Virus record (IMG/VR): IMGVR_UViG_3300012929_000016
Span: 1 to 39,150 of that record
Strand: one strand, 5' to 3'
Source of the DNA: a virus
Length of the DNA: 39,150 nt
The notes under the pieces were generated by a model that saw only the letters and a list, made by a program, of their open reading frames with translations, was not told where the DNA came from and ran no database searches. Of this stretch, positions 4,983-25,713 are shown piece by piece. Each line of letters starts with the position of its first letter. Within the stretch, counting starts at the first letter, position 1. A program made the translations under genes and the position numbers.

Positions 4983-5099
4983 TCAACTTCTCCAGCGACG
5001 CAGTATGGTGCGGTGAGTCAGCTCGCAGTCCACGTACCCGAACAAGATCCCGGCTGCGAAACAGCCGATGCAGATGAAGATCCAGGTTCCGGTAGTCAT
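4983..5099 (-). CDS. Small single-span membrane protein, 38 residues
   Basis: The protein begins MTTGTWIFICIGCFAAG and has one hydrophobic span at about residues 5-22, followed by a charged tail ending RTILRRWRS. The ATG overlaps the TGA of the Gly-repeat gene (ATGA) and the TGA lies one base before the next ATG, so it tiles exactly into the operon. A longer frame on the same strand across 4978-5178 is out of phase with both neighbours and is a shadow. This is the second small membrane protein in this operon. Its function is unknown. Confidence 0.7.
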   Translation of the reverse strand: MTTGTWIFICIGCFAAGILFGYVDCELTHRTILRRWRS

Positions 5100-5788
5100 T
5101 CGCATTCACCGATGATTTCGCGTTCCAATGCTGCAAACTTGTCATCTTGCTGTTGGAGTTCGCCGAGCAACGCAACACACCAGATGCGCTGGCCTTTCCA
5201 CTTCGGCGGAAGTTCTGTTGCGTGCAGAGCTTGTGGAGTGCAAATCTTCAGCGGGCCGGAAATTTTCTCGATTGCGCCAGGGACCGCTTGTACAGTGCGA
5301 TTGCCGCCGTTACAGGCATAGCCGGTTTCATCCGACCACCAGAAAGCAATCTTCGCTCCAAGCTGTTGGAGCTCGCCGAGCCTTGCCCGCTGGGCGTCGG
5401 TCCATTTCTTTCCGAAATAGGCGAGCGTAGCGAGCCAATACGACCCGTCCCCGGACCCGGACCCGTCCCCGGACCCGTACCCGGACCCGTACCCGGACCC
5501 GTCCCCGTCCCCGTACCCGTACCCGTACCCGGACCCGGACCCGTCCCCGGACCCGTCCCCGGACCCGTACCCGGACCCGGACCCGTCCCCGTCCCCGTCC
5601 CCGTACCCGTACCCGGACCCGTCCCCGTACCCGGACCCGTCCCCGTACCCGGACCCGTCCCCGGACCCGTACCCGTACCCGGATCCGGACCCGGACCCGT
5701 CCCCGGACCCGTACCCGGATCCGTCCCCGGACCCGTACCCGGCTGTCCAGGCGGGCAACTCGCCTCGCAAGAGGGCTACCGCGTCCAT
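5096..5788 (-). CDS. Gly-(Ser/Asp/Tyr) repeat protein with conserved C-terminal domain
   Basis: 230 residues in three parts. Residues 1-16 are an ordinary start (MDAVALLRGELPAWTA). Residues 17-116 are 50 uninterrupted Gly-X dipeptides with X = Ser (22), Asp (14) or Tyr (14), a flexible acidic low-complexity region. Residues 117-230 form a folded domain (YWLATLAYFGKKW, PGAIEKISGPLKICTPQALHAT, PPKWKGQRIWCVALLGEL, AALEREIIGE). This last half resembles a domain seen in phage and metagenomic proteins with similar Gly-rich or pentapeptide-like repeats, possibly near DUF7666. GGGAAG precedes the ATG, which overlaps the DUF6948-like gene by 13 bases. It is the second gene from the early promoter. The function is unknown. 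Confidence 0.85.
   Translation of the reverse strand: MDAVALLRGELPAWTAGYGSGDGSGYGSGDGSGSGSGYGYGSGDGSGYGDGSGYGDGSGYGYGDGDGDGSGSGYGSGDGSGDGSGSGYGYGYGDGDGSGYGSGYGSGDGSGSGDGSYWLATLAYFGKKWTDAQRARLGELQQLGAKIAFWWSDETGYACNGGNRTVQAVPGAIEKISGPLKICTPQALHATELPPKWKGQRIWCVALLGELQQQDDKFAALEREIIGECE
5441..5740. repeat. Hexanucleotide tandem array, 50 units
   Basis: The minus strand is GGG followed by TCC, GAC or TAC (one unit GGATCC-type variant), repeated 50 times without a frame break. On the plus strand the units read gacccg, tccccg and tacccg. Because every unit is six bases, gain or loss of units never shifts the frame. The array lies wholly inside the coding region at 5096-5788. Confidence 0.95.
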
Positions 5789-22373: not shown

Positions 22374-23012
22374 ATGTCGATGATTCCTTCCGTCATGGAC
22401 AAACGTCCGCCCTTCGTGCAATTCCGTGATCAGGAATATGGGATCAACCGCGAGGCCTCTGAAGCCGCCGGCCGTCCGGTTCCCGCCATGGTGACCATGG
22501 TCTGCATCACCCCGCATGGTTCCAAGGATGAGTTCGTGAAGCCTGCTGAGGAATGGTTGGCACAGACCAAAGCCAAAGCGCTCAAGGGTGATTATCCGGT
22601 GGAGTGGTACAACCATTTCGACCTGCAGTTCAGCGAATGGAAGAAGGGCAATGAACTTCCGCGGGAAGGAACCCCAGTGCAGACTTGGCAGGCGGTGAGC
22701 AATGAGCAGCGCAGCCGATTGAAAGCGGTCGGTATCCCCACGGTCGAAGATCTGGCGCAATACCCGGATGGCAGTTTGGGGCAGATCGGTCTCGATGGCC
22801 GGTATCTGCGGGATCTGGCTCGAGGCTGGATCGCCGAAGGTAAGGACAAGGGGATCAATGCCAAGGCACTCGCGGATGCCAATGTGAAGATCATGGATCT
22901 CGAGGCGGATAAGGAGCGTATGCAAATCCGTTTGCAGAAGCTCGAGGAACGGCTGCTCGATGAGCCGGTGAAGCGTGGGCCAGGTCGGCCGCGGCGTGAA
23001 GAGGCAGCATAG
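22374..23012 (+). CDS. Virion-associated protein with AT-hook-like tail, 212 residues
   Basis: AGGAG lies upstream of the ATG. The middle (FVKPAEEWLAQTKAKALKGD and WYNHFDLQFSEWKKGNELP) and the segment RLKAVGIPTVEDLAQYPDG are soluble alpha-rich. The C-terminal third is a coiled coil (IMDLEADKERMQIRLQKLEE), followed by KRGPGRPRREEAA, which contains the GRP core of an AT-hook DNA-binding motif. A DNA-contacting internal or connector-region protein is possible. The gene ends in TAG at 23010-23012, and the same frame continues without a further stop into the next gene. Confidence 0.65.
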   Translation: MSMIPSVMDKRPPFVQFRDQEYGINREASEAAGRPVPAMVTMVCITPHGSKDEFVKPAEEWLAQTKAKALKGDYPVEWYNHFDLQFSEWKKGNELPREGTPVQTWQAVSNEQRSRLKAVGIPTVEDLAQYPDGSLGQIGLDGRYLRDLARGWIAEGKDKGINAKALADANVKIMDLEADKERMQIRLQKLEERLLDEPVKRGPGRPRREEAA

Positions 23013-23024
23013 GGGTTTGCTGCT

Positions 23025-23729
23025 ATCAGTCTACTCACGATCACGCAGAGTCTGACGACCAAGGTCCTGTCGTCCAAGCCGACTGTGGCTGCGGCTTCTG
23101 CGGATCCGAAGATCCTGCAGGCGATCGAGTATATCAATGAGGCGGGTCAGGAACTTGGCTCCCGTCATACCTGGCAAGCACTGACGAGCGAGGCCACCTT
23201 CACGACGGTCGCGACCGAAGTGCAGGGAACGATTCAGGCACTCGCGGGCAGTGGATTCAGTTTCATCATCACGGAATCGATGTGGAACCGCACCCAGCGC
23301 CGGCCACTCTTTGGGCCAAAATCCCCATCTGAATGGCAGAATCTCAAAGCCCGCTTTAGCTCAGGTCCCTGGATTGCCTATCGGATCCGCGGCAATCAAT
23401 TGCTGTTCTTTCCTGTGCCGCCTGTGGGCCACGCTGTCTATTTCGAGTGGTGTACGAAGTTCTGGGCGACCGATAGTACTGGGGTTACACCTAAGAGCAG
23501 TTTCACCGTCGATACGGATGTGGCGCTTCTGGATGAGCGTGTCATCACTCTGGATGCGCTGTGGCGGTTCAAACGCGCGAACAAACTGTCCTACGATGAG
23601 GACTATCAGAAGGCACAGGATGCCATCAATGATTTGATTACCCGCGATGGCAGCAAGCCACGCTTGAACCTACAAGGACCTCCAGCAGAGTTCGGGCCCG
23701 GGATTTTCGTTTCCGCCGGGAACTGGTAA
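23025..23729 (+). CDS. Head-tail connector/adaptor-like protein with non-canonical start
   Basis: The homologous beginning of this podovirus family is usually M-S-L-L-T-I/L; here the sequence reads ATC AGT CTA CTC ACG ATC (ISLLTI) with AGGGG nine bases before the ATC. The first ATG/GTG/TTG in frame is a GTG at 23085, which would remove the conserved N-terminus and has no ribosome site. From ATC 23025 the protein has 234 residues: PKILQAIEYINEAGQELGSRHTW then FRIRGN-type beta segments and LDALWRFKRANKLSYDEDYQ. It probably joins the portal to the tail. Start at ATC, readthrough of the TAG at 23010, or a sequence error are the three options. Confidence 0.7.
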   Translation: MSLLTITQSLTTKVLSSKPTVAAASADPKILQAIEYINEAGQELGSRHTWQALTSEATFTTVATEVQGTIQALAGSGFSFIITESMWNRTQRRPLFGPKSPSEWQNLKARFSSGPWIAYRIRGNQLLFFPVPPVGHAVYFEWCTKFWATDSTGVTPKSSFTVDTDVALLDERVITLDALWRFKRANKLSYDEDYQKAQDAINDLITRDGSKPRLNLQGPPAEFGPGIFVSAGNW

Positions 23730-25286
23730 ATGGCTTTCGGTCGCTCCCGCCGCCGGTCCCTTCCTCAACAGGATGTTGAACCAATCACGGTATCGGTTCC
23801 GGCCCCGATCGGCGGAATCAACGCGCGTGATGCTTTGGCTGCCATGCCATCCACCGATGCCATTACTTCGTCCAACTGGTTTGGTACCCCATCGTATGTC
23901 GCTTTTCGCAATGGCAAACAGCAATGGTCCACAGGTCTGCCGGGTGCGGTTGAGACAATCATGGCCTACAACGGCCTCATCAGTCGCAAACTCTTTGGTG
24001 TCAGTGGAAATTCGATCTATGACATTACGGTTCAAGGGGCTGTAGGTGCTGCGCTAGTCACCGCTTTGAGCAATTCCCGCTTGCAACATCAGATGTTCAA
24101 TGCGGGTGGAGGGAATGTTCTGATCTGGGCCAATGGGGCAGTTCAGCCCCAGTTCTACAATGGAACTGTGTGGGCGGCGACGACCATCTCAGGCAGTGGA
24201 CTGACACCGTCCAATCTGATCACAGCGACCGTCTTTAAGCAGCGGATGTTCTACATCGAGAACAACTCGATGAACGTCTGGTATTCGGCGACGACAGCTT
24301 TTCAAGGAGTGTTAACGCAGATCCCGTTAGGCCAACTCTTCAAGAAGGGCGGCATCCTGATGCAGATGGCCACCTGGACCATCGACAACGTCTCGGGTAT
24401 TGATGACTACGCTGTCTTCATCACCAGCGAAGGGGAAGTTGCGATCTATCAGGGATATGACCCCGCCCAAATCAGTACCTGGAGCCTGGTGGGTATTTTC
24501 AACATTGGAAGGCCCATCGGACGTCGGTGTTATACGAAGTATGCCTCCGATATCATCGTGATCACGGCGGATGGCCTGACGCCGCTGTCCAAGGCGATGC
24601 TGACCGATCGCACACAAGAGGATGCACAGCTTACCTACAAGATCATCAACGCCATCAATAATGATGTGCAGAGCTTCAATGCCAACTTCGGCTGGCAGGT
24701 CATCGATTATCCGCTGGGAAACAAGCTCATTTTGAATGTGCCCGATACGACCAATACCCTCATGCATCAGTGGGTGATGAATTCGGTGGCGAAGTCGTGG
24801 TGGCAGTTCAATAACTGGAATGCCAATTGTTGGGAGCTACAGCAGGATGCGTTGTATTACGGAGAAAACACCAAAGTGTTTCTGGCCGATGTGGGCACGA
24901 ACGATGCCGGAAACGCCATCACGGTCGATTGCAAACCGGCTTTTTCCTATTTTGATCTGCCGGGGAAACTCAAGAATTTCATGATGGCGCGGCCGATCTT
25001 CCAGGCCAATGCCAACATTGCACCTCAGATCACATTGAATGTGGATTTCAATGATGTGATAAACCCTGCTCCTCCCTTCATCTCAGGAGGCTTGGCGCCC
25101 TGGGATACGAGTCCATGGGATGTGACTCCGTGGGGAGATTCGAGTCCGTCCATCAGCATCAAGAATTGGCAAGGTATTGTGGGGTTGGGCTATGTCGCAA
25201 GCGCTCGTATCAGTCAACAGGTCTCGGGTGTCATCGCTCAATGGTTCGCAACCGATTTCCTCTTTGAAGAAGGAGGGCCCCTCTAA
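23730..25286 (+). CDS. Tail hub/stabilisation protein, 518 residues
   Basis: Starts right after the connector gene. PITVSVPAPIGGINARDALAAM at about residues 18-39 is the typical opening of podovirus tail proteins that close the DNA channel (compare P22 gp10-type). The body has repeating Gly-Asn-x-Leu/Ile blades (NGLISRKLFGVSGNSIYD, GGNVLIWANGAVQPQFYNG, VFKQRMFYIENNSMNVWYS) suggesting a beta-propeller. Trp-rich repeats near the end (APWDTSPWDVTPWGD) are notable. The function is inferred from the fold and gene order. Confidence 0.7.
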   Translation: MAFGRSRRRSLPQQDVEPITVSVPAPIGGINARDALAAMPSTDAITSSNWFGTPSYVAFRNGKQQWSTGLPGAVETIMAYNGLISRKLFGVSGNSIYDITVQGAVGAALVTALSNSRLQHQMFNAGGGNVLIWANGAVQPQFYNGTVWAATTISGSGLTPSNLITATVFKQRMFYIENNSMNVWYSATTAFQGVLTQIPLGQLFKKGGILMQMATWTIDNVSGIDDYAVFITSEGEVAIYQGYDPAQISTWSLVGIFNIGRPIGRRCYTKYASDIIVITADGLTPLSKAMLTDRTQEDAQLTYKIINAINNDVQSFNANFGWQVIDYPLGNKLILNVPDTTNTLMHQWVMNSVAKSWWQFNNWNANCWELQQDALYYGENTKVFLADVGTNDAGNAITVDCKPAFSYFDLPGKLKNFMMARPIFQANANIAPQITLNVDFNDVINPAPPFISGGLAPWDTSPWDVTPWGDSSPSISIKNWQGIVGLGYVASARISQQVSGVIAQWFATDFLFEEGGPL

Positions 25287-25290
25287 GCGT

Positions 25291-25713
25291 TTGGTATTTG
25301 GTGAAGATCAGCGTGTCGCGCAATGGGCAGCTGACCGTTCAGCGCATGGCAATATCTGGGATGGGAAGTTTTTGGCGATCGGGTTGGAACACAATGGGAA
25401 GTTGATCGCGGCTCTCGGGTATACCGAATATCTAGCCGGCGGGAGTGTGCGCGGCCATATCAGCGCCATAGAGGGCAAACACTGGATGACCAAATCCTTT
25501 TTGCGAATCATGTTCATCTATCCGTTCTTGCAACTGAAGGTCCAACGGTTCAACGCGCTAATTCCGGCCCAAAACAAGGCCGTGAAGCGATTCGTGGAAC
25601 ACTTGGGCTTTACCCATGAATCGACCATGGAGCGTGCACTGGCGAATGACGATGTATTGGTCTATCGGATGTTCGTCGAAGATCCGGCTTGGAAACGATG
25701 GGTGATGATATGA
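25291..25713 (+). CDS. GNAT-like acetyltransferase-fold protein
   Basis: 140 residues if it starts at the TTG 25291 (reading MVFGEDQRVAQWAADRS), four bases after the previous stop; AGGAGG is 14 bases upstream. The frame is open further upstream but there overlaps the tail gene. The pattern LAIGLEHNGKLIAALGYTEY, then QLKVQRFNALIPAQNKAVKRFVEHLGFTHE and TMERALANDDVLVYRM is a GNAT fold. The RFVEHLGF region resembles the acetyl-CoA site. Such genes occur among podovirus structural genes, where their substrate is unknown; a structural use of the fold is also possible. Confidence 0.7.
   Translation: MVFGEDQRVAQWAADRSAHGNIWDGKFLAIGLEHNGKLIAALGYTEYLAGGSVRGHISAIEGKHWMTKSFLRIMFIYPFLQLKVQRFNALIPAQNKAVKRFVEHLGFTHESTMERALANDDVLVYRMFVEDPAWKRWVMI

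Follow-up and report, generated by a model that had tools for sequence, protein, structure and literature searches.

Translation starts at AUC and AUU are very rare, and most known weak starts of this type belong to a handful of bacterial genes, the gene for initiation factor IF3 among them. In that gene, infC, the start codon is AUU, AUC or AUA (AUC in Streptomyces, PMC5472188; AUA in S. aureus, PMC13009471); an AUH start together with a Shine-Dalgarno sequence is kept among orthologues, and the gene is autoregulated by IF3. Attenuated or IF3-repressed initiation has experimental precedents at AUU, AUA and GUC starts (PMC5472188, PMC13009471). In sigR of Streptomyces (GUC) and in cvfC1 (AUU) and ccpN (AUA) of S. 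aureus the weak start acts as a brake on expression, and the S. aureus pair has an extended Shine-Dalgarno sequence as well (PMC5472188, PMC13009471). Non-canonical starts are thus already known, but a recurrent AUC or AUU start in a phage virion gene is without precedent in the open-access papers that we searched, in which no AUC or AUU start was found for any phage; this is weak evidence of absence.

Here we describe such a gene in a viral stretch of 39,150 nucleotides (IMG/VR record IMGVR_UViG_3300012929_000016), which we refer to as the window. The gene lies at 23025-23729 on the plus strand and would encode 234 amino acids if initiated at ATC, with fMet as the first residue. Its product matches Pfam family PF24175 (SU10_adaptor; 37.2 bits, above the cutoff of 27) and phrog_6013 (tail protein; E 6e-36, residues 2-217 against profile positions 2-214). 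An AlphaFold2 model (pLDDT 87; input alignment of 36 sequences) had its top Foldseek matches in tail chains of Pa223 and SU10 and in other portal-tail adaptors, cyanophage A4 among them (TM 0.6-0.7, E about 1e-6). The gene sits in the structural operon, between the capsid and the stabilization protein. It is preceded by a gene for 212 amino acids (22374-23012, plus strand; phrog_20268) in the position of p50 of Myxococcus phage Mx8, and followed by one (23730-25286, plus strand; phrog_5107) in the position of Mx8 p52 or "phage stabilization protein". This order agrees with p50-p51-p52 of Mx8 and with MW202489, where the next gene is annotated as a stabilization protein. Judged by profile, modelled fold and neighbours, the product is a head-to-tail connector with the SU10/T7 gp11 adaptor fold, and the first-pass annotation had labelled it correctly. 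This gene agrees with the SU10, phrog_6013 and T7 gp11-type adaptors in profile, predicted fold and gene order, and stands apart from them in its unusual start codon only.

The junction with the upstream gene reads GAG GCA GCA TAG GGG TTT GCT GCT ATC AGT CTA CTC ACG ATC ACG CAG. The TAG (23010-23012, plus strand) ends the upstream gene and falls within the ribosome-binding site for the connector, whose Shine-Dalgarno sequence AGGGG (23011-23015, plus strand) stands nine bases before the ATC (23025-23027, plus strand) that homologue comparison points to as the start codon. TAG and ATC are in frame in the window lineage, with only the codons GGG TTT GCT GCT between them, and the connector frame contains no ATG, GTG or TTG from the TAG until the GTG at 23085-23087 (plus strand), which is codon 21. 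The first-pass annotation had reported exactly this: a connector lacking a normal start codon, with AGGGG nine bases ahead of an ATC and a frame open back to the TAG. It offered three explanations, namely initiation at AUC, readthrough of the TAG, or one wrong base, and it called for an alignment with homologues from related phages.

We scanned viral contigs and fetched more than 80 connector homologues. The start column holds ATC in the window, in L002, and in L005 (72% identity), L007 (68%) and L035 (66%), and ATT in L037 (59%) and L128 (52-57% to L007 and L037). L002, the contig closest to the window, is a separate contig with a 99% identical protein and 45 differences in 1,356 bases (3.3%). 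Nearly all other closer homologues have ATG, TTG or GTG in this column; L092 appears to start at GTG, its position being the least certain. In the closest ATG relatives, L003 and L004 (87-88% identical), the family start M-S-L-L named in the first-pass annotation falls at the same position. Distant homologues that have no start codon at the column mostly begin a little further upstream, at an ATG. A usable canonical start is lacking in all seven non-canonical members. In L007 a TGA two codons ahead of the ATC leaves only TGT or ATC as possible starts, and in most of the others the choice is nearly as restricted. Since related phages carry AUC or AUU exactly where others have AUG, GUG or UUG, the connector gene very probably initiates at AUC 23025, the first of the three explanations. 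The ATC in this column is also more than a chance occurrence, because independent contigs have ATC or ATT there.

The same recurrence bears on a sequencing or assembly error, with base 23027 really being G. The codon of the closest ATG relatives does differ from that of the window in this base, but ATC appears in five contigs, among them L002, whose DNA differs by 3.3%, and two further contigs have ATT. Because ATC and ATT recur in separate contigs, we regard a wrong base as effectively excluded.

Across five non-canonical lineages, pN/pS is 0.50 at codons 2-20 (about 0.6 in the rest of the gene) versus 0.96 at codons -5 to -1, and protein-level constraint therefore begins at the ATC or ATT and is absent upstream of it. 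Together with the TGA of L007, which restricts the possible starts, this strongly disfavours readthrough, a GTG start and translational bypassing. Under readthrough, decoding of the TAG would join the upstream protein and the connector into one chain of about 450 residues, and the stop is indeed in frame with the ATC or ATT in the window, L002, L035 and L037. However, three of six non-canonical lineages place it at a distance from the start codon that breaks the frame (10 bases in L005, 8 in L007 and 8 in L128), so the arrangement needed for readthrough is not conserved. In this the connector differs from programmed stop-codon readthrough. L007 also has its further in-frame TGA, the ATG homologues begin immediately after the stop, and the codons between stop and ATC lack protein-level constraint. 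The readthrough suggested in the first-pass annotation is therefore very unlikely.

A start at GTG 23085, with the residues upstream of it untranslated, is the choice that gene callers would make, this being the first canonical start in frame. Yet it would remove codons 2-20, which are under protein-level constraint, including a helix predicted by the AlphaFold2 model at codons 3-14 (23031-23066, plus strand), a loss of conserved sequence foreseen in the first-pass annotation. Across non-canonical relatives the first canonical start falls at codon 12, 14, 21, 31, 33 or 34, and because this position varies it is not conserved. We consider this start as improbable as readthrough.

Bypassing of the kind known from T4 gene 60 would take off from the GCA before the UAG, use a hairpin that contains the stop, and land on the GCU before the AUC. 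The window, L002 and L035 do have a stop-bearing hairpin with an Ala codon on either side, but in L005, L007, L037 and L128 no matching landing codon precedes the ATC or ATT, so that take-off and landing codons are unmatched, a difference from gene 60, and homologues with canonical starts need no fusion. Its probability is slightly lower still. Lower again is that of an out-of-frame ATG just upstream from which translation would begin and then shift frame. Such an ATG precedes the ATC by 7 bases in L005, 4 in L007 and 5 in L035, but is absent from the window and L002; the distances imply shifts from two different frames, and these ATGs fall within the Shine-Dalgarno sequence or immediately next to it, too near for use. 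Initiation at the AUC or AUU itself is thus the reading that we adopt below. In L005 (2998-3003; L011 9998-10003), SLL is preceded by two ATC codons in a row, both in frame, and either could be the AUC start.

The non-canonical codons are scattered over the family, with ATC spread over four lineages and ATT over two. On maximum-likelihood trees, which do not separate gains from losses of non-canonical starts, ATC alone needs four changes on strongly supported branches, and the canonical/non-canonical distinction needs at least six switches. No close relative was found among phage isolates, the best isolate record being 37% identical, and no prophage relative was found in the genome contigs scanned. 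Among the matches listed in a genome-wide scan, no other conserved gene had a convincing homology-backed start outside ATG, GTG and TTG. In many of the adaptor homologues, residue 61 is followed by an inserted, Gly/Ser-rich extra domain of ~95 residues (alignment A2, columns 62-156); its carriers are L018 (2637-3626), L022 (1561-2541), L050/L052, L053-L057, L059-L061, L063, L064, L083 and L128.

We compared ribosome-binding sites and stop contexts across the family. Pairing to the 3' end of 16S rRNA is predicted to average -8.3 kcal/mol for non-canonical starts versus -5.9 kcal/mol for ATG starts (p 0.002, uncorrected for kinship); after correction for kinship, with only 3-6 independent pairs, the association of Shine-Dalgarno strength with start codon is not significant. 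The direction fits the general trade-off between weak starts and strong Shine-Dalgarno sequences (PMC5622118). At -6.4, the window's own Shine-Dalgarno sequence AGGGG ranks lowest in strength in the set; it is spaced by nine bases, and most others have AGGAG at 6-7 bases or better. ATG homologues often lie directly behind the upstream stop or overlap it (e.g., TAAATG, TGATG), and this adjacency suggests that they use termination-reinitiation. The AUC and AUU homologues lie 8-12 bases behind a stop that the Shine-Dalgarno sequence incorporates (TAGGAG, TAGGGG, TGAGGTG). We found no internal promoter or terminator at the junction and no Rfam match in the window. A phage-encoded tRNA that reads AUC as initiator was also considered and rejected, as neither the window nor the thirteen relative loci scanned contained tRNA genes.

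In the window lineage a hairpin abuts the AUC (23003-23024, plus strand). A 7-bp stem, GGCAGCA (23003-23009) with TGCTGCT (23018-23024), ends at the base before the start codon, and the loop TAGGGGTT (23010-23017) carries the stop and the Shine-Dalgarno sequence. Across 22841-23090 the window and L002 differ at two positions only, 23006 (A>G in L002) and 23021 (T>C). These two bases pair with each other in the stem, so that a single compensatory change turns an A-U pair into G-C; in a simulation with the observed rates, a pair of this kind had a probability close to 0.01. The hairpin is likely to be real in this lineage. Start-abutting hairpins are more stable in non-canonical than in ATG members (p 0.007, uncorrected for kinship, with the window carrying most of the signal), and the longer stretch 22975-23085 folds no better than shuffled sequences (z -0.2). 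The hairpin is strong in the window and L002, weaker in L035, L007, L005 and L037, and inspection by eye did not show it in L128. We thus rejected it as a family-wide feature and claim it for the window lineage only.

Our combined findings suggest how initiation at this AUC may proceed. The 30S subunit would be positioned by the Shine-Dalgarno sequence, which shares bases with the upstream gene's stop codon, and fMet-tRNA would decode AUC with a mismatch at the third base, giving an expected N-terminus of (f)M-SLLTITQSLTTK or SLLTITQSLTTK. Ribosomes terminating at the UAG would probably help, either by opening the small hairpin and then re-initiating or by passing on their 30S subunits. AUC is a weak start against which host IF3 should discriminate, and the likely effect is therefore that connector output is held down. 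Relatives of the connector are dodecameric, with 12 copies per virion, and low output may suit a protein needed in so few copies. On balance we lean slightly towards the view that the weak AUC start limits connector dose. It is doubtful that a regulatory switch is made up of the hairpin, the overlapping stop and Shine-Dalgarno sequence, and the AUC; if it were so, the connector would be made mainly by ribosomes finishing the upstream gene, in response to host IF3, its dose would be fixed relative to that of its neighbours, and a phage structural gene would be under initiation-fidelity control. Control of the start by the level of IF3 is more speculative yet, and we think it improbable.

The comparison with infC runs in both directions. 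As in infC, no canonical start in frame would preserve the conserved protein, the AUH codon class recurs at the column, and the Shine-Dalgarno spacing is workable. Unlike infC, which is subject to feedback by its own product, the connector is a phage virion gene with no known feedback, and the codon in its family switches among AUG, UUG, GUG, AUC and AUU. The connector start may similarly be likened to the brakes of sigR, cvfC1 and ccpN, but those are bacterial genes, tested by experiment, and this is a structural phage gene. A virion gene family with at least six switches between canonical and AUC/AUU starts amounts to a natural experiment on weak starts and on the ways in which they are compensated. 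It also illustrates that gene callers limited to ATG, GTG and TTG mis-start or miss real phage structural genes.

Elsewhere in the window, the gene that follows the 518-residue protein (about 25280-25713) seems to start at a TTG overlapping the stop (TTGA), and the longer open reading frame listed upstream of it is a shadow of the previous gene. On the minus strand, an open reading frame at 5096-5788 contains a long low-complexity run of GYGSGDGSG repeats, and the opposite strand is open there and rich in PGPVPV repeats.
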